From contig NC_015291.1 of the NCBI RefSeq assembly GCF_000253155.1, positions 1,645,001-1,709,000 of the forward strand: DNA of 64,000 bases, written 5' to 3'. Origin of the DNA: Streptococcus oralis Uo5 (GTDB lineage Bacteria; Bacillota; Bacilli; Lactobacillales; Streptococcaceae). Positions 45,969 through 58,048 of this stretch are shown one piece after another. Both the position numbers and the translations under genes were made by a program. Each line of letters begins with the position of its first letter. The first letter of the stretch is position 1. The notes beneath the pieces were generated by a model. The model was not told the DNA's origin, did not search any database, and saw only the letters and a list, made by a program, of their open reading frames with translations.

Positions 45969-46215
45969 GATGATTCTCCTTTGTAAATAAATTCCAAGCC
46001 TTGTCAATCAGGCTTTTCTAATCGTCATATGGTTTTTAAAACCCCTATCACCGTGTCCCTTTGATGAATTTTCAGAATCTTTAAATCTTTGTTACAAGCA
46101 CTCAAAAACCTGAAAAAAAGCACAAAAAGAGCAGCTAAATCTGACTTTTTCAGAAGATTTAACTGCTGTGAGCCTTGTCTGGACAATATTTCAGACAAAA
46201 CCTACGACAAATGAT
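45969..46215 (-). promoter_or_regulatory. rpoB leader, about 250 nt, with candidate attenuator
   Basis: Non-coding leader between the rpoB promoter and its TTG. From 5' to 3' on the minus strand: a 7-bp hairpin TTGTCTG / CAGACAA (46175-46197 region), the terminator-like hairpin (46130-46167), a T-rich tail, then about 150 nt without clear structure before the ribosome site. The two consecutive hairpins suggest premature-termination control. No known riboswitch class is recognised. Confidence 0.55.
46119..46167 (-). terminator. Terminator-like hairpin inside the rpoB leader
   Basis: Minus strand AGCAGTTAAATCT / AGATTTAGCTGCT, 13 bp with one G-U, followed by CTTTTTGTGCTTTTTTTC. There is no same-strand gene upstream for it to serve, because the neighbour is divergent. 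Confidence 0.8.
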
Positions 46216-50142: not shown

Positions 50143-50184
50143 AACACCCCATGGTTAGAAGACTCTTCTAGCCATGGGGTGTTG
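50143..50184. terminator. Bidirectional terminator between pullulanase and ABC operon
   Basis: Long stem AACACCCCATGG...CCATGGGGTGTT with TTAGAAG / CTTCTAG extension, flanked by A and T runs. It separates two converging units. Confidence 0.92.
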
Positions 50185-50205: not shown

Positions 50206-50970
50206 TCAAATCATATATTCTACACTATAGGTTGCATCTGATAAGATACGAGCCAGAAACTGCTTGGTTCGTTCTTCTTGTGGACGACTAAAGAAATCGT
50301 GGGGATTGTTCTCCTCTACGATACGGCCTCCATCCATGAAAATAACGTGGTTTGCGACATCTCTAGCAAATCCCATCTCATGCGTGACGACAACCATGGT
50401 CACACCTTCTCCCGCCAACTGTTTCAGAACATCCAAAACATCTCCAACCAACTCAGGGTCTAGTGCTGATGTTGGTTCATCTAGCAAAATGACCTCCGGC
50501 TTGACGGCAATAGCACGCGCAATTCCTATTCGTTGTTGTTGCCCCCCAGAAAGCTGGGAAGGGTAGTAGTCCTTATAGGCCAGTAAACCAACTTTTTCCA
50601 AGGCAGATTCTGCACGTTTTAGCGCTTCTTCCTTGGGAACTTTACGAGCGACGATTAGGCCTTCTAAAATATTTTCCAGAGCAGTTTTGTTTGCAAAGAG
50701 ATTGTAGTGTTGGAAAACAAAGGCTGTTTTTTGGCGAATTTCTAGAATGTCTTTCTTGCTTAATTTGGCTAAGTCATAAGTTTTTCCTGCCAAGGTCAAA
50801 CGGCCACTGTCAGCTTTTTCTAAGTGGTTGAGACAACGGAGAAAGGTCGTTTTCCCCGAACCTGATGGTCCTAAGATAACGACGACATCCCCTTGGTTGA
50901 CCTGGAGATTGACATCCTCCAGGACCTGTCTCTCACCAAATGTTTTTGCGATATGTTCTACTTGTAACAT
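50206..50970 (-). CDS. Amino-acid ABC transporter ATPase (last gene of UroD/ABC operon)
   Basis: 254 residues. Walker [10 protein letters not shown], signature [15 protein letters not shown], Walker [16 protein letters not shown]-loop [11 protein letters not shown]. GlnQ/TcyN class. It lies 9 bp after the second permease and completes an importer with two permeases and one receptor. The operon context with two UroD-fold proteins suggests the cargo is a small thiol- or methyl-containing amino-acid-like compound (inference). Confidence 0.93.
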
Positions 50971-50979
50971 CCTGTCCTC

Positions 50980-51702
50980 CTATACAAAACGCGCGCTAGA
51001 TGCTTTCGCTCTCTTTTCTTTTTTCACATAGCCTTTTTCTAATACAGAAAAGCCCCACTGAATCAAACCACAGATCAAAATATACTGCAAAAATATTACA
51101 AAATAAGACTCAAAATACTGGTAACCGTAGGACGCTTCTACACGAGCAATAGCGGTGATATCCTTGATGGTCATAACAAAGACTAGGGAGGTCCCTTTGA
51201 CGATATTGATCACCAGATTGGCCAAGTTAGGCAAGGCTGAGCGCAAGGCTTGAGGAAAAACAATCCTTAGATAGGCCTGGGTCGTAGTCAGCCCAATCGC
51301 ATGCGCCGCCTCTAGTTGTCCCTTGTCCACCGTCAAGATCGCTGAACGCAAAATCTCCGATAAACTCCCGACTGTCATCAAACTATAAATGATAAAGGCA
51401 TAGTAGAGAGGATCAAGCTTGAAAATATCAAAGTCACTTCCTATGCTTTTGAGAAATTGATTCAGCAAACTTGGAAACAAACTATAAAAGAAGAGAATCA
51501 ATAAAATCGGTGGAGTCGCTCGGATAAAAGCCAGATAGACCAGAGAAAAACTCCTCACCCCTCGAACCTTGTAAATCTGCCCCAAGGCTAAAAATAGAGC
51601 CGGTAAAAAGCTTAAGACCATAGCCACAATCATGATAATCAAGGTGATTGGCACACCCTTCAAGGTCTCCAGAAAGGTCTTTACAATATAGTCTATATCC
51701 AT
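50980..51702 (-). CDS. Amino-acid ABC transporter permease B
   Basis: 240 residues, HisM/TcyM type with about five helices and the EAA loop LEAAHAIGLTTTQAYLRIVFPQ. Paired with the other permease 3 bp upstream, giving a heterodimeric channel rather than the homodimer of the glutamine-type fusion at 4023-5591. Confidence 0.92.
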   Translation of the reverse strand: MDIDYIVKTFLETLKGVPITLIIMIVAMVLSFLPALFLALGQIYKVRGVRSFSLVYLAFIRATPPILLILFFYSLFPSLLNQFLKSIGSDFDIFKLDPLYYAFIIYSLMTVGSLSEILRSAILTVDKGQLEAAHAIGLTTTQAYLRIVFPQALRSALPNLANLVINIVKGTSLVFVMTIKDITAIARVEASYGYQYFESYFVIFLQYILICGLIQWGFSVLEKGYVKKEKRAKASSARFV

Positions 51703-51705
51703 TTC

Positions 51706-52398
51706 TTACCTCCCTTTTGTTTCCAAAGACTTCTCAAGCAAACGACTCAAGCTAGAAATAACCAAGGCAATCCCCCAGTAAAGAAGCGCAACTGCCGTAT
51801 AGGTTTCCAGAGAGTAGTTCCCTAAATTGCGACTGATCAAGAGATTGCCTGCCCCCATAACATCAACAAAACCAATCGTATAAGCCAAGGCAGCATCCCG
51901 CATGAGATTGAGAATAGCGGTCGTTATATTGGGAAGAGCAACTTGAAAAGCTTGGGGAAAAATGATTCTCCAAAAAGTCTGACTTGGAGTCAAACCAATA
52001 CTAAGCCCGGCCTCTGTCTGCCCCTTTGGAATAGCTTGATAGGCCGCCTTGAAAACCTCGGCAACAATAGCCGCAAACAAGAGAATCATCGTCAAGAGAA
52101 CAAAAATAGTTTTAGACCAGTTGTTGATATCCAAACCAAGCCACCATTTCAGAAATTCTGGCAAGCCATAAAAGACTAGAAAAAGCAAGACAATCGGCGG
52201 TGTACAACGAAGGGTAAAGATATAGCTTTTGGAAATCGCTGCAAAACTCTTGTCATCTCCTACTTGTGCCCAGGCCAAGAGACCTCCAAAAAGGGAACCA
52301 AGAAGAGTGGTAAAAAAGAGAATGGACAAGGTCATAGGAAGTGCCTTCCATAAGGTCGGCAAAAACTGAAAGACCTTGGAAAAATCATAAGAAACCAT
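51706..52398 (-). CDS. Amino-acid ABC transporter permease A
   Basis: 230 residues with about five helices and the EAA loop TEAGLSIGLTPSQTFWRIIFPQ. Distantly related to permease B. Follows the receptor gene by 32 bp in the same operon. Confidence 0.92.
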   Translation of the reverse strand: MVSYDFSKVFQFLPTLWKALPMTLSILFFTTLLGSLFGGLLAWAQVGDDKSFAAISKSYIFTLRCTPPIVLLFLVFYGLPEFLKWWLGLDINNWSKTIFVLLTMILLFAAIVAEVFKAAYQAIPKGQTEAGLSIGLTPSQTFWRIIFPQAFQVALPNITTAILNLMRDAALAYTIGFVDVMGAGNLLISRNLGNYSLETYTAVALLYWGIALVISSLSRLLEKSLETKGR

Positions 52399-52430
52399 GC
52401 AAAACCCTTTCTAGTCTTGTAATTTCTGGT

Positions 52431-53309
52431 CTAGTCTTTGTCTACATAACTAAAGACATCTTCTTTAAAGTATTGCTGAGATAGCTTAGCAAGCGTGCCA
52501 TCTTCCTTCAACTCTTTGATTGCTTTTTCATATTCTTTAGCGAATTGCTCACCCTTTTCATCACGGTGAATCAAGGGATAAGTTGGAATACCCTTGTATG
52601 GGAACCAGCTGAGTTTATCCGCATATTGGTGGTAAGGGCCATCTTCTGCGGTAACTGCTTTTTCAAAGGACAGTTTGATATCAAAGAAGGCGTCATAACG
52701 TCCTTCCAAGACCCAGGCATAGGCATCTGCCACTTTAAAGGATTCAGCTGCTGTTAGCTCAATCGGTGCATCCTGATGTTTTTCATTGTAGCTGGTGATG
52801 ACATTCCATTGAGCATTCTGTGGAGAGATGGGAACCAATTTCCCTTTATTCTTAGCAAAGTCATCAATGGTTTTGTATTTCTGTTCATCTTCTTTTCTGA
52901 CAGTAAATCCGATGATGCTCGCTCCGACTGGTTCAGATGGAATGACAAACTTTTTAGCTCGTTCATCTGTGTACCAAGCTCCCTTGGTTCCGATGTCATA
53001 CTTGCCTGATTCCAGACCAATCAAGAGGTCATCATCACTGGTACCCGTATATTCAAATTGATAGTTTGCCAACTTCTCATCAACAGCCTTCAAAACAGCT
53101 ACCTCATAACCATCTGATTCCCCTTTTTCATTGACAAAGTCATAAGGTACATAGTTTTGTGTATGGGCAACCTTCAAGGTTATAACTTCAGCAGACGAAG
53201 CCGTTTCTCCCTCCTTGGCTGGAGCGCCAACTAAACTTCTCCCGATAATCGTTGCCCCAATTACTGCAACAACTGCTACACCACCGATAATCCATGCTTT
53301 TTTACTCAT
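52431..53309 (-). CDS. Amino-acid ABC substrate-binding protein without lipobox
   Basis: 292 residues of type-3 binding-protein fold (TLKVAHTQNYVPYDFVNEKG, SDGYEVAVLKAVDEKLA, then GLESGKYDIGTKGAWYTDERA). The N-terminus is a hydrophobic segment (AWIIGGVAVVAVIGATIIG) with no Cys, so it is either held by an uncleaved anchor or secreted, unlike the usual lipoprotein receptor. The sequence has the look of cystine/TcyK-type receptors, but ligand residues cannot be assigned with confidence. Confidence 0.88.
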   Translation of the reverse strand: MSKKAWIIGGVAVVAVIGATIIGRSLVGAPAKEGETASSAEVITLKVAHTQNYVPYDFVNEKGESDGYEVAVLKAVDEKLANYQFEYTGTSDDDLLIGLESGKYDIGTKGAWYTDERAKKFVIPSEPVGASIIGFTVRKEDEQKYKTIDDFAKNKGKLVPISPQNAQWNVITSYNEKHQDAPIELTAAESFKVADAYAWVLEGRYDAFFDIKLSFEKAVTAEDGPYHQYADKLSWFPYKGIPTYPLIHRDEKGEQFAKEYEKAIKELKEDGTLAKLSQQYFKEDVFSYVDKD

Positions 53310-53320
53310 CTTTTTCTCCT

Positions 53321-54319
53321 TTAGTTTTCAAGCGCTTCTCTCACCCACTGGATACGTTCAACTGCGATATCACTTGGAATGGTACAATCTGCCCCAAGTA
53401 CCAAGCCCTGTTCCCCAGCTTCTGCAACTAGTTTCTTTGCCTCAGCCTGAATGGCATCCTTGCTACCAGTATACAGCAAGCCTGTCTTGCCATTTTCGAA
53501 TCCTCCAAGAACCGTACGTCCCTTGAAAATCTCACGACCTTCCTTGAGAGTGATTCCCTCTGGTCCTACAGCCCAGTTAAAGACTTGGGCTGGGTAGTCT
53601 GCAAAAAGATGAATATCATTTCGCGCTCCCTCGTAGCCACAGATATGAAGAACAGTGACGCCACCAACAGCACTAGCTGCTTCCAGAACCGTTATCTCGC
53701 TAGGGGCAATGACGGCTTGATAATCTGCTGCCGACACTCGTTGATCTTGGATACTCTGCACGCTGAGATAGATTCCATCAGCACCAGCCTCTTCGATGAC
53801 AGCTCGACTGAGACTCGCAATATCTTCTGCAATCACATCCAACACCTTTTTAAGGGCTTCAGGATCTTCCACCAGAAAGTCTGCAATAAGGTCATCGCCA
53901 CCAGACACTTCCCCCAGTAGCCACTTGAGATAGGTCACAGGAGCAAAAATATTGTAAATCGCAACAATATCTTCTGTAAATTCTTGCTTGATTTTCTTAA
54001 CCAAGTCCACCTGCTCTTTTATCCAAGCATGATCTGTTCCGAGTGGTTGAATAGTTGCCAATTCTTGAAGTGATTTTCCTTTGGCAATCGCTGGATTTGG
54101 ATAAGCAAAGTAGCCATCACTCATGAGTTTGATAAAGTCTGGCTGAACTTCTCGTATAAAGCGCTTATGGCCCTCGATATTCTTCTCGATAATGACTGGA
54201 TTTGAGAAACCGTGTAGCCATTCGTCTTCGGATGTGAAATGGTGCCAAAAGCCAACTGGCACACGTTCAACCTTTTCACCTCTAAATGCTTTTAAAACCC
54301 ATTCTTTTTTTTCTGACAT
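53321..54319 (-). CDS. UroD-fold methyltransferase-like protein, paralogue 2
   Basis: 332 residues of the uroporphyrinogen decarboxylase superfamily. Streptococci lack haem synthesis, and the MtaA/CmuA-type zinc site is intact: His225-X-Cys227 (VTVLHICGYEG) and Cys312 (LGADCTIPSD). This supports thiol activation and methyl transfer, as in MtaA, over decarboxylation. GGFENGK and YLSVQSIQDQR are shared with paralogue 1. It sits between the small membrane protein (2 bp) and the receptor gene (11 bp). Methyl donor and acceptor are unknown. Confidence 0.85.
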   Translation of the reverse strand: MSEKKEWVLKAFRGEKVERVPVGFWHHFTSEDEWLHGFSNPVIIEKNIEGHKRFIREVQPDFIKLMSDGYFAYPNPAIAKGKSLQELATIQPLGTDHAWIKEQVDLVKKIKQEFTEDIVAIYNIFAPVTYLKWLLGEVSGGDDLIADFLVEDPEALKKVLDVIAEDIASLSRAVIEEAGADGIYLSVQSIQDQRVSAADYQAVIAPSEITVLEAASAVGGVTVLHICGYEGARNDIHLFADYPAQVFNWAVGPEGITLKEGREIFKGRTVLGGFENGKTGLLYTGSKDAIQAEAKKLVAEAGEQGLVLGADCTIPSDIAVERIQWVREALEN

Positions 54320-54321
54320 TC

Positions 54322-54525
54322 TTATTCTCCATTTCTTACTTTTTCAACTAATAAACTGCTTGCGATATCATTCGAGCGTAGAAAGGGGAGACTGGACTTG
54401 GAAAAATCCTGAACTCCACGACATCTCTCTCCATTTTTGCAGTGCCCATTTTTTACGACGCTTATGGCAATCAAAGCCAGCAAACCGACAACTGCAATGA
54501 AGATTCCCCATCTTTTACTTTTCAT
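54322..54525 (-). CDS. Small single-helix membrane protein between UroD paralogues
   Basis: 67 residues with an excellent Shine-Dalgarno (AAAGGAGGAG). One N-terminal helix (WGIFIAVVGLLALIAISVV), then a short region with two Cys (NGHCKNGERCRGVQDF) and a polar tail. It is separated by 2 and 11 bp from its neighbours, so it belongs to the operon. No family recognised. The CxxxxxxC pair could bind metal or form a disulfide (inference). Confidence 0.75.
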   Translation of the reverse strand: MKSKRWGIFIAVVGLLALIAISVVKNGHCKNGERCRGVQDFSKSSLPFLRSNDIASSLLVEKVRNGE

Positions 54526-54536
54526 AGCTCCTCCTT

Positions 54537-55541
54537 TTAGAGAACAGCTGCCTGCCGAATCCAGTCCAACCTCTCTAAGTCAAAGTCATCTGGAACAGTA
54601 CAGTCAGCTCCCAGAAGAACGCCTTTACTACCAGCTTCAGCCAGCAACCGTCTTGTTTCATCTTGCAATTCCGCCTTGGAACCTTGATAAAGCAAGCTTT
54701 TCTTGCCATTTTCAAATCCACCTAAAAAGGCCTTGCCTGGAAACAACTCTTGCCCCTGTGTCAAACTAACATCCTCATGGTGGGTCGCCCAGTTGACCAC
54801 TTGAGCTGGATAGTCCTTAAATATCGTCACATCATTGCTCGCACCTTCAAAACCACAGATATGGAGGATATTGGTCCCACCAACCTGATTGGCTGCCTCC
54901 AAAATCGCTATATTGCTCGGTTCGATATAGGTTTTGTAGAGTGCTGGTGTAATGCGCTCATCTTGAATTTCCTGGGTGCTGAGGTAAATCCCGTCAACAC
55001 CGCCTTGCTGGATGATTTTCTGAGTTAGGATAGCAATATCTCCTGCAATCACATCTAGAATCGCTCTGAATTGCTCAGGATTTTCAAGCAATAGATCAGC
55101 CACTTCCCTATCTCCTCGAGAAGTTTCTGTACGGAACCAGCGCTTGAGGTAGGAGATAGGCGAAAAGATATTGTAGAAAGAAGCAATCTCTTCGGTAAAG
55201 GTCTCTCGAATCGCTTGTACCACTTCCACCTGTTGCTGAATCCATGGGTGTTCCTCACCAATCGACTCAATAGAAGTCAGCTCCTGAATGCTTGCGATCT
55301 TAGGACTATAGACATTACTTGGATAAAGGAAAAAACCGTCGCTCATAATTTTGACAAAATCAGGGCGAATCCTTTCCACATAGTTGCGATGCCCGTCAAC
55401 ACTTTTTTGAAAGATACGTGGATTGTTTAATCCCTGCCCCTTTTCTTCGAGTGTTACAAAATGAAACCAAAATCCCACAGGAACTCTTTCCACTTCATCG
55501 CCTCGAATCGCTCTAAAGACTAAATCTCTTTTACTTGCCAT
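54537..55541 (-). CDS. UroD-fold methyltransferase-like protein, paralogue 1
   Basis: 334 residues from the ATG at 55541 (MASKRDLVFRAIRG), with AAGGAG 6 nt upstream; the frame extends to 55580 without a ribosome site. Zinc-site residues His227-X-Cys229 (TNILHICGFEG) and Cys314 (LGADCTVPDD) are conserved with paralogue 2. First gene of the operon. A 62-bp piece of it recurs at 56921-56982. The pair may act as a heterodimer or on two different methylated substrates. Confidence 0.87.
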   Translation of the reverse strand: MASKRDLVFRAIRGDEVERVPVGFWFHFVTLEEKGQGLNNPRIFQKSVDGHRNYVERIRPDFVKIMSDGFFLYPSNVYSPKIASIQELTSIESIGEEHPWIQQQVEVVQAIRETFTEEIASFYNIFSPISYLKRWFRTETSRGDREVADLLLENPEQFRAILDVIAGDIAILTQKIIQQGGVDGIYLSTQEIQDERITPALYKTYIEPSNIAILEAANQVGGTNILHICGFEGASNDVTIFKDYPAQVVNWATHHEDVSLTQGQELFPGKAFLGGFENGKKSLLYQGSKAELQDETRRLLAEAGSKGVLLGADCTVPDDFDLERLDWIRQAAVL

Positions 55542-55610
55542 ACCTTTCTCCTTCCATTTGGATTGAAACCATCTTACCACTCCTTTTCCCCTTTTCCCAA
55601 TATATATTGA

Positions 55611-55769
55611 CTATCAACTCGATTAGAAATTTTTATATCTATGAAGAAAAAAATCCTTGAAAAGCTTGACGTTACTAGCCTTTCAAAGATTCTCTTTATT
55701 TTCATCTATTTTTCAAAAAGGAGCTGATATAGATTTTCTATCAAGCCGATTGGAAATTTTTATATCCAT
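55611..55769. repeat. 32-bp direct repeats flanking a leader hairpin
   Basis: Copies at 55611-55642 and 55738-55769 are identical at 28 of 32 positions (shared core GAAATTTTTATAT). They enclose the hairpin at 55645-55690. They may be paired regulator sites or a duplication scar. Confidence 0.8.
55645..55690 (-). terminator. Terminator-like hairpin in the leader of the UroD/ABC operon
   Basis: Minus strand CTTTGAAAGGCT (11-nt loop) AGCTTTTCAAGG, 12 bp with two wobble pairs, followed by ATTTTTTTC. No same-strand gene precedes it, so it would act on the operon's own leader. Confidence 0.7.
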
Positions 55770-55908
55770 CTTCATTCCCAAATTAAGTACATAATTTTAT
55801 CCTAATACCAAATTACTACTGAAAAATTTCTTTTATCACGATATTTCCTTGCACAAATCCCATGAAAACGCTACAATATTAATAGACTATTATTAGGAGG
55901 ATGGGATT

Positions 55909-56766
55909 ATGAAAATATCCAAAGTTACCATTACAATTGCTTCTACACTTGCTTCCGTCATTTTACTGACTGGCTGTGGCACAAATTCGGTAAATTCACA
56001 GACAACACAAAGTAGTACATCTGACAATCAGGTTACAATGACCTATGATCAGTTGCGTTCAAGAGAAAATACTATGTCAACTCTTTGGTATCAAAAAGCA
56101 GCTGAGACCAAGGCACTCTATCTACAAGGTTACAATGTCGCTACTGATCGTTTGAAAGAACTACTAAAAACACAGACAGATAAACCCTACTCTATCGTTT
56201 TGGACTTAGACGAAACAGTATTAGACAATAGCCCTTATCAAGCGCAAAATGTCAAAGATGGAACAGCATTTACCCCAGAAAACTGGGATGTCTGGGTAAA
56301 AAAAGCTGCAGCCAAGGCTGTACCAGGTGCTAAAGACTTTCTCCAATTTGCAGACAAAAACAGTGTCCAAATTTACTATGTATCTGACCGTACGATAGAT
56401 CAGGTAGATGATACGATCAAAAACCTAGAAAACGAAGGAATTCCTGTACAAAGCCGCGATCATCTCATGTTCTTAGAAAAAGGCGTCAAATCTAAAGAAG
56501 GTCGTAGACAAGCAGTCCAAGAAAAAACCAACTTAGTCATGCTACTAGGAGACAATCTTGTGGACTTTGCAGAGTTTTCGAAGACCTCTGAAACTGAGCG
56601 CGACCAAAAATTAGAGGAATTACAAAAAGAGTTTGGTGAGAAATTCATCATTTTCCCTAACCCAATGTACGGATCATGGGAAAGCACTGTTTACAATGGT
56701 AATAAATTGGATGCCAAGGGTCAAACTGAAGAGCGCCAAAAAAACTTACAAGGTTTTGATAAATAA
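55909..56766 (+). CDS. Acid phosphatase lipoprotein, e(P4)/class C type
   Basis: 285 residues. A lipoprotein signal with lipobox LLTGCG (Cys about residue 23) anchors it to the outer membrane face. The HAD-type catalytic site is IVLDLDETVLDNSPYQ (nucleophile Asp), with YVSDRTIDQVDDTI and LGDNLVDFAEF completing it. Class C acid phosphatases release phosphate from nucleotides such as NMN or from phosphomonoesters at the cell surface. Transcribed alone and divergent from the UroD/ABC operon. Confidence 0.94.
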   Translation: MKISKVTITIASTLASVILLTGCGTNSVNSQTTQSSTSDNQVTMTYDQLRSRENTMSTLWYQKAAETKALYLQGYNVATDRLKELLKTQTDKPYSIVLDLDETVLDNSPYQAQNVKDGTAFTPENWDVWVKKAAAKAVPGAKDFLQFADKNSVQIYYVSDRTIDQVDDTIKNLENEGIPVQSRDHLMFLEKGVKSKEGRRQAVQEKTNLVMLLGDNLVDFAEFSKTSETERDQKLEELQKEFGEKFIIFPNPMYGSWESTVYNGNKLDAKGQTEERQKNLQGFDK

Positions 56767-56995: not shown

Positions 56996-58048
56996 TTATA
57001 TCCTCTCTTTCATGGCAAAGTAAGCTCGTACTTTGGGGGCCACTTGTGTGCCGAAGAGTTCAATAGCTCTCAAAACTTGATCATGTGGCATAGAACCAAG
57101 CGGTAGATGGAGCATGAAACGGTCCAAGTCTAAATCCTCAATCATGCGAATCAATTTTTCTGCTACCTGATCTGGATTTCCCACAAACATGGCACCATTT
57201 GGACCAACTTGCTCCAAATATTGCTCATAGGTCAACTCCTGCCAGTGTGGACGGTCTTTGGAAATTGCATCCACCACTTGCTTGGTCGGATGGAAATAAT
57301 CTTTGACAGCCTGCTCGCCATCTTCCGCAATCCAGCCCCAAGAATGAGCACCCACTTTCAGGTCTTTATCCGCATGACCGGCTTCCCTACCAATCTCACG
57401 ATAAGCTTGAATCAACTTTTTAAAATAACGTGGATTGCCACCGATAATGGCATAGACAATCGGCAACCCCGCCTGAGCAATCTTCACTGTTGATTCGACA
57501 TGGCCACCTGTCGCCACCCACAATGGCAATTTGTCCTGAACTGGACGGGGATAGACTTCTTTTCCAGCAATGCTTTGGGTCAATTGACCTTGCCAGTCTA
57601 TCTTGGTCTTTTCATTGACTAACTGGAGCAAGTCTAATTTCTCATCAAAGAGAGCTTCGTAGTCTTTCAAGTCATAACCAAACAGAGGGAAGGATTCGGT
57701 AAATGAACCACGCCCAGCCATAATCTCCGCACGGCCATTTGACAAGGCATCGATGGTGGCATACTGTTGGAACAAGCGAACCGGATCCATACTCGAGAGA
57801 ATGCTGACTGCACTAGTCAAACGAATCTTTTTGGTATTGACTGCCCCAGCTGCAAGAACAATCTCTGGCGCCGATACCGCAAAGTCCTCCCGATGATGCT
57901 CCCCAATCCCGTACACATCCAAACCAACCTTATCAGCCAGCTCAATTTCTGCCACCAACTGACGAATGCGTTCATCATGACTGTAAATCTGCCCAGTCGC
58001 TTCTAGAGCTGTTGCTTCACCAAATGTTGAAATCCCTAATTCTACCAT
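56996..58048 (-). CDS. Luciferase-like flavin-dependent monooxygenase (LLM class)
   Basis: 350 residues with the bacterial-luciferase TIM-barrel pattern: VELGISTFGEATALEATGQI, GLDVYGIGEHHREDFAVSAP, LFQQYATIDALSNGRAEIMA, and PLWVATGGHVESTVKIAQAG. FMN-dependent oxidation of an unknown small molecule. S. pneumoniae has, as I recall, a similar oxidoreductase between glmS and spuA, so this gene is the syntenic anchor of the region. The UroD/ABC block then appears inserted beside it. Confidence 0.9.
   Translation of the reverse strand: MVELGISTFGEATALEATGQIYSHDERIRQLVAEIELADKVGLDVYGIGEHHREDFAVSAPEIVLAAGAVNTKKIRLTSAVSILSSMDPVRLFQQYATIDALSNGRAEIMAGRGSFTESFPLFGYDLKDYEALFDEKLDLLQLVNEKTKIDWQGQLTQSIAGKEVYPRPVQDKLPLWVATGGHVESTVKIAQAGLPIVYAIIGGNPRYFKKLIQAYREIGREAGHADKDLKVGAHSWGWIAEDGEQAVKDYFHPTKQVVDAISKDRPHWQELTYEQYLEQVGPNGAMFVGNPDQVAEKLIRMIEDLDLDRFMLHLPLGSMPHDQVLRAIELFGTQVAPKVRAYFAMKERI

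Follow-up and report, generated by a model that had tools for sequence, protein, structure and literature searches.

A streptococcal operon coupling UroD-fold proteins to an amino-acid importer: a candidate module for sulfur-amino-acid salvage

Introduction

What might two proteins with the fold of uroporphyrinogen decarboxylase (UroD) be doing in an operon that also encodes an amino-acid ATP-binding cassette (ABC) importer? The question is raised by a locus of Streptococcus oralis Uo5, found in a stretch of 64,000 nucleotides (NC_015291.1, positions 1,645,001 to 1,709,000) that we call the window and in which all coordinates of the locus are counted. An earlier reading of this DNA from its letters alone (the original prediction) proposed corrinoid-independent methyl transfer acting on an imported methylated or thiol amino acid. 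Having followed it up computationally, we favour, with a probability of roughly 0.42, an accessory operon for sulfur-amino-acid salvage by corrinoid-free zinc-thiolate alkyl transfer. A broader and safer claim is that the locus serves as a sulfur salvage module, whatever its chemistry, and we consider this quite probable; alkyl transfer as that chemistry is a tentative assignment, somewhat short of an even bet.

Results

Seven open reading frames on the minus strand occupy positions 50206-55541, all of them present as predicted and tightly spaced, with intergenic gaps of 2-32 bases. From the first gene to the last, they are as follows.

54537..55541, minus strand: UroA, 334 aa, UroD fold, W-x-H clade (see below), triad H227/C229/C314, the second copy of the enzyme; Pfam URO-D 60.6 bits
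54322..54525, minus strand: small protein, 67 aa, N-terminal segment hydrophobic, C-terminal motif around (S/N)D(L/I)A..LL
53321..54319, minus strand: UroB, the TcyD counterpart, 332 aa, UroD fold, W-x-H clade, triad H225/C227/C312; Pfam URO-D 79.4 bits
52431..53309, minus strand: receptor, the TcyE counterpart, a family-3 solute-binding protein with an N-terminal membrane anchor; Pfam SBP_bac_3 80.2 bits
51706..52398, minus strand: permease 1; Pfam BPD_transp_1 74 bits; best NCBIfam model a cystine ABC permease, below its cut-off
50980..51702, minus strand: permease 2; Pfam BPD_transp_1 60.5 bits; best NCBIfam model a cystine ABC permease, below its cut-off
50206..50970, minus strand: ATPase; Pfam ABC_tran 122.2 bits; best NCBIfam model the L-cystine ATPase TcyN, at 314.7 bits with 406 required

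The conservation of the operon exceeds chance by far. Between the window and an S. mitis locus (L041), the ratios of non-synonymous to synonymous substitution (dN/dS) of five of the large genes lie between 0.017 and 0.063 (UroA 0.063, UroB 0.052, receptor 0.017), with the ATPase lower and its dS saturated; these figures are rough, as every dS is above 1.

The enzyme and the receptor are strictly coupled in our sample of 197 Streptococcus genomes. UroB was matched in 81 of them (in one, G161, as a fragment only), in line with the accessory nature that had been proposed, and the receptor, scored at E <= 1e-60, in 79, every one of which was enzyme-positive. The only enzyme-positive genomes without the receptor were G161, where a natural in-frame deletion joins UroA residues 1-127 to ATPase residues 89-254 (locus L130, 7360-8283), and G173, whose only match is a distant paralogue accompanied by a separate importer. 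The receptor gene of G127 is split, and its second half alone was matched. Two UroB matches were found in 49 genomes, the second being non-adjacent in G043, a 78-residue piece in G138 and interrupted by an internal in-frame stop in G031. UroB was matched in all receptor-positive genomes, and UroA is broken or absent in many relatives; the core enzyme is therefore UroB, with UroA as an addition.

The five-gene set (UroD-like gene, receptor, two permeases and ATPase) was present in all 27 named streptococcal loci, with UroB split in two frames in L039, and in 24/24 additional streptococcal regions in which UroB was matched over its full length; among these, L133 has a split receptor gene, and in L118 the gene for the ATPase lies upstream. 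These loci are not independent, as the named and other sets overlap (L058 and L120, for instance). Within Streptococcus, the variable neighbours that would have spoken against the original prediction were not seen. Outside the genus, the set occurs in 7 of the 11 named loci (Anaerobium, a Lactobacillales metagenome-assembled genome, Trichococcus and Sedimentibacter) and in six of 13 other regions (L094-L097, L100 and L101); three Bifidobacterium loci and one Clostridia metagenome-assembled genome lack it in the stretch fetched, and L102, without the set proper, has a related one with a distant enzyme. The W-x-H clade as a whole is uncommon: at E <= 1e-15, it was found in 14/398 Bacillota genomes, including two of Streptococcus. 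No S. pneumoniae was among the 38 named loci, for which the search was limited to close relatives. Names of homologous proteins were drawn from the best 120 of 1204 and the best 120 of 944 matches, and none was named S. mutans among the latter 120.

Related arrangements were also observed. A second operon type (L107 6136-9999 in G043, L108 8793-14098 in G173) combines a receptor and two permeases with a distant UroD-fold protein that has no middle Cys; in the G173 version, these genes are followed by one for an ATPase, and a divergent gene encodes a HomR-type regulator. In loci of the Trichococcus type (L062 6992-13768, L100 8817-15361), a Gfo/Idh/MocA-type oxidoreductase gene is flanked by two different UroD-fold genes, ahead of the importer.

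To which branch of the UroD superfamily do the two proteins belong? Both exceed the Pfam URO-D cut-off of 23.9 bits, and they are the only two PF01208 matches in their 1.96-Mb genome. The His-x-Cys motif and the distal Cys stand exactly at the residues that had been claimed. Among the aligned rows, this triad is found in 34/34 core W-x-H rows and 20/20 MtaA/CmuA rows, and in none of the eight HemE rows, whose triad columns hold F, V/I and H. Conversely, the N-terminal RQAGR motif is present in 8/8 HemE rows and 0/52 rows of the W-x-H clade (clustering at 85% had reduced the UroD-fold rows from 202 to 52 and the receptor rows from 111 to 28). In the tree, the 52 W-x-H rows stand apart from the 20 MtaA/CmuA and eight HemE rows with support of 100/100. 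The enzyme alignment (A1, 45 rows; the receptor alignment, A2, has 27, and some rows have trimmed starts) contains 11 invariant columns, including W25, H27, D61 and K64, and nine of them lie outside the triad. On this sequence evidence, UroA and UroB belong to a distinct W-x-H clade with an MtaA-type triad and are likely zinc-site enzymes.

Database annotation would instead make them bona fide uroporphyrinogen decarboxylases of the haem pathway. The Pfam URO-D match agrees with such a label, as does the name uroporphyrinogen decarboxylase (family) given to these proteins in S. oralis, S. sanguinis and S. gallolyticus. HemE (TIGR01464) indeed shares the overall fold and the Pfam family, but it has no triad, the W-x-H clade has no HemE motif, and the tree separates the two. 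The hemE model found no match in the S. oralis genome at E <= 0.001 and is unlisted in the NCBIfam results for either protein, and the MtaA-type triad takes the place of the HemE residues. The haem-pathway explanation is already contradicted, and we give it practically no credence; the original prediction was right to place both enzymes outside bona fide UroD and away from haem synthesis.

A profile search of the Protein Data Bank (PDB) gave seven matches, of which MtaA 4ay7 was the best (E 1.9e-13), and the AlphaFold model of UroB (pLDDT 94.3) has UroD and MtaA as its fold neighbours; the UroA sequence alone, searched with phmmer, had no PDB match at 0.001. The MtaA/MtbA/CmuA family (TIGR01463; 4ay7) is alike in the UroD fold and the triad and unlike in clade, invariant residues and corrinoid partner, of which there is none here; against that model, UroA and UroB score only 35.1 and 37.5 bits, failing its cut-off of 235.4. 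The MetE-type domain Meth_synt_2 (PF01717) is in neither protein, PF01208 being the sole domain at E <= 0.001. MetE and the folate-independent core methionine synthases (MesA-D) use zinc-thiolate catalysis on a related barrel. MesD reportedly needs no B12 and obtains the methyl group from a partner that depends on oxygen (PMC7857596).

The absence of a corrinoid protein, another element of the original prediction, held up well. The B12-binding domain PF02310 exceeded its cut-off in 0/197 Streptococcus genomes, in a search whose control was positive in 12/14; four genomes had sub-threshold matches, and the operon itself encodes no such domain. PF01717, by contrast with PF02310, was found in 177/197 genomes, including all 81 enzyme-positive ones (strong in 79, weak only in G026 and G130), and the 20 genomes without it were all enzyme-negative. 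PF02574 was present in 44/81 enzyme-positive vs 32/116 enzyme-negative genomes. As PF01717 occurs in every enzyme-positive genome, the operon is no substitute for methionine synthase, and we set aside the idea that it replaces either this enzyme or an S-methylmethionine enzyme, which the two distributions do not support. The same data bear on the version put forward originally, in which homocysteine would be methylated to methionine at the expense of a donor taken up from outside, be it an N-methyl compound, a betaine or a sulfonium. Its methyl-transfer mechanism is plausible; with neither enzyme replaced and with operator-like sites of the cysteine (CmbR) type, this version nevertheless seems unlikely to us.

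The importer is, by Pfam and NCBIfam, a polar-amino-acid ABC system. Its receptor has a membrane anchor at the N-terminus instead of a lipobox Cys, and a lipobox-like Cys is present in the copies of Trichococcus-type loci, of Anaerobium and of some others (the motif was judged by eye). The receptor model is nearest to streptococcal GshT (4c0r, 4eq9) and Bacillus subtilis YtmK (2o1m), at an identity of 22-26%, and Foldseek adds cystine receptors. To our knowledge, no UroD-like enzyme has been tied to YtmK or GshT. In four S. oralis-type loci (L045, L046, L024 and L025), the operon has two tandem receptor genes, the extra one being about 71% identical to that of the window.

The block is the counterpart of S. 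mutans tcyDEFGH, taken here as SMU.932-SMU.936: the five genes are alike and begin with the UroD-like gene, followed by that of the receptor. The ten C-terminal residues of SMU.932 are those of the UroD-like proteins P0122 and S. macacae P0123, and the C-terminus of SMU.933 is that of the S. ratti receptor. Judging from these sequences, S. mutans TcyD is very probably the UroD-fold enzyme described here. Compared with tcyDEFGH, the S. oralis operon adds a second UroD-like gene and the small protein, and an orthologue of HomR was not found in its genome at E <= 1e-60; such orthologues occur in 29/197 genomes, 21 of them enzyme-positive.

Several published data sets touch this locus. In S. mutans, tcyDEFGH is a HomR-activated cysteine transport operon (PMC5131005). 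SMU.932-936 are down under manganese limitation (PMC6952196) and in saliva (PMC10900908) and up with S. mitis (PMC11921374), and the SMU.932 and SMU.933 proteins are described as accumulating when ClpX is absent. A lower "uroporphyrinogen metabolism" was reported for S. oralis (PMC10900908), and we suspect that this signal is the present operon; GALLO_1275, listed under porphyrin synthesis in an S. gallolyticus transcriptome table, is probably this gene. No paper was found that combines uroporphyrinogen decarboxylase, Streptococcus, cystine and operon. In the literature searched, which did not extend to subscription papers, we did not meet the enzyme clade or its strict tie to the importer, while the operon is already known as an S. 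mutans transporter.

The DNA around the operon holds three further features.

55819..55839, minus strand: CmbR-operator-like candidate site, the best upstream of the operon, 3/21 mismatches, equalled in 0/100 shuffles
55600-55642 and 55727-55769, no strand: 43-base direct repeat upstream of UroA, copies 84% identical
50143..50183, no strand: terminator-like near-palindromic stem of 19 pairs, 9 of them G-C, between a convergent spuA-type gene and the end of the operon

The CmbR consensus was taken from PMC5131005. The candidate site lies nearly 300 bases before UroA, closer to a divergent gene at 55909. The repeat copy distal to UroA bears a site whose S. mitis-type counterpart, as judged by sequence and distance, matches the CmbR operator with three mismatches. 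The site scan covered 36 loci, including the window and seven non-streptococcal ones; with the window left out, a CmbR-like site (<=3 mismatches) was found upstream in 11/28 streptococcal loci vs 5/127 control regions. These operator-like sites, being of the cysteine type, favour a supply of thiols over one of methyl groups. In one further locus (L121 9052-10191, G191), an M20 amidohydrolase-like gene, recognised by eye, lies between UroB and a HomR-type gene, with a CmbR-like site upstream. A CYS-box, TGATA-N9-TATCA, has six exact sites in the genome, one of which precedes the operon; at the other five, no sulfur gene was recognised from the first residues of the neighbours, for which no family search was made, and the motif was dropped as evidence.

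The small protein has no Pfam or NCBIfam family for the window copy, and it is nonetheless a real gene. Copies lie between UroA and UroB in 64/64 fetched loci with both enzymes (several from the same genome; L047, L055, L089 and L092 are examples) and, among 40 loci that have UroB but not UroA, solely in L031, where a truncated UroA is left; the model used was built from six sequences that it then recovered. Its dN/dS is 0.18 between the window and L041 and 0.18-0.26 across three pairs. The tiny Cys-containing membrane protein of the original prediction thus survives as a gene and not in its cysteines, which are unconserved: they are confined to oralis- and mitis-type copies and absent in sanguinis- and gordonii-type versions.

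As for the surroundings, an LLM-class monooxygenase (56996-58048; TIGR03858, 525.9 bits, over the cut-off) directly precedes UroA in S. mitis-, some S. oralis- and S. sanguinis-type loci; in the window, a P4-type 5'-nucleotidase gene (55909-56766) intervenes, and no match was listed at the mutans-type loci L056-L059. We set it aside as an operon component, a functional tie and old synteny being indistinguishable. The terminator-like scan gave seven sites vs 5.2 expected, and all except 50143-50183 had at most nine pairs. At gathering thresholds, Rfam showed no RNA element near the operon; the sole match reported was a Lacto-rpoB RNA (RF01709, 74.9 bits) at 46155-46212 on the minus strand.

Discussion

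How could these parts work together? In the scenario we favour, the ABC importer would take up a sulfur amino acid, for which cysteine or homocysteine with an S-substituent, or else a conjugate resembling cystine, is the likeliest candidate. Once this compound is in the cytoplasm, TcyD/UroB, along with its paralogue UroA where present, would bind a thiol as thiolate at a putative zinc site made of the His-x-Cys motif and the distal Cys, and would transfer an alkyl group, which may be methyl, onto or off this thiol without a corrinoid. The outcome would be usable cysteine or homocysteine when cysteine is scarce. The sulfur amino-acid link of the original prediction gains support from the receptor fold, the CmbR-like operators and the tcyDEFGH literature. 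More tentatively, the scenario is also favoured by cystathionine-lyase/synthase-type genes that adjoin two UroD-fold copies (G534, which also has a PatB C-S lyase, and G603).

Several observations weigh against this scenario. Receptor position D210, which we take to be the Asp that binds the alpha-amino group, is D in only 17/27 rows and otherwise S, E, M, N or A; with this variability, the receptor may bind something other than an ordinary amino acid. A close CmbR-like site is missing from 17/28 streptococcal loci and from 7/7 non-streptococcal ones, and 7/13 non-streptococcal regions around UroD-fold matches have no gene set in the stretch fetched. Within the clade, the middle Cys is replaced by His in 13/18 distant members. 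Moreover, of the residues invariant in the clade, W25, K64, Y242 and W249 occur in 0/20 MtaA/CmuA rows and H27 in 1/20, which argues that the substrate pocket differs and that the chemistry may differ as well. One could imagine a UroD-superfamily reaction without methyl transfer, such as decarboxylation or C-S/C-C cleavage of the imported amino acid. We regard it as improbable, given that the HemE motif is absent here and that HemE itself has no triad.

A final objection is that the role published for tcyDEFGH is plain cysteine transport. It is conceivable that the operon is merely a cystine/cysteine importer, whose UroD-fold partner would be a non-catalytic zinc-thiol binder receiving, buffering or sensing cysteine. 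Description as transport only would fit such a role, the triad by itself would be enough for thiol binding, and tcyEFGH is induced alongside cysK and glutathione genes early in S. mutans zinc stress (PMC9387928). On the other hand, the 11 invariant columns, with nine outside the triad, fit a catalytic pocket, and both paralogues are under purifying selection. Of the alternatives to salvage by alkyl transfer, we consider this one the least unlikely, although still doubtful.

Conclusions

Extending the alkyl-transfer scenario to the whole clade, it is tempting to suppose, a little more hesitantly than for the operon itself, that W-x-H proteins are corrinoid-independent zinc alkyltransferases of the UroD superfamily, present in several Bacillota and in Bifidobacterium. 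Their importer-linked branch, which would include the so far overlooked TcyD of S. mutans, the most thoroughly studied caries bacterium, would be dedicated to imported sulfur amino acids, freeing cysteine or homocysteine by transfer of the S-substituent to another thiol. The haem-making labels on UroA/UroB-type proteins are misleading, and one has probably entered a transcriptome table; the present analysis corrects them. If our scenario is true, the UroD superfamily would gain a further corrinoid-free branch, and the "cysteine uptake" operon of S. mutans would be a complete salvage pathway with a chemistry of its own.

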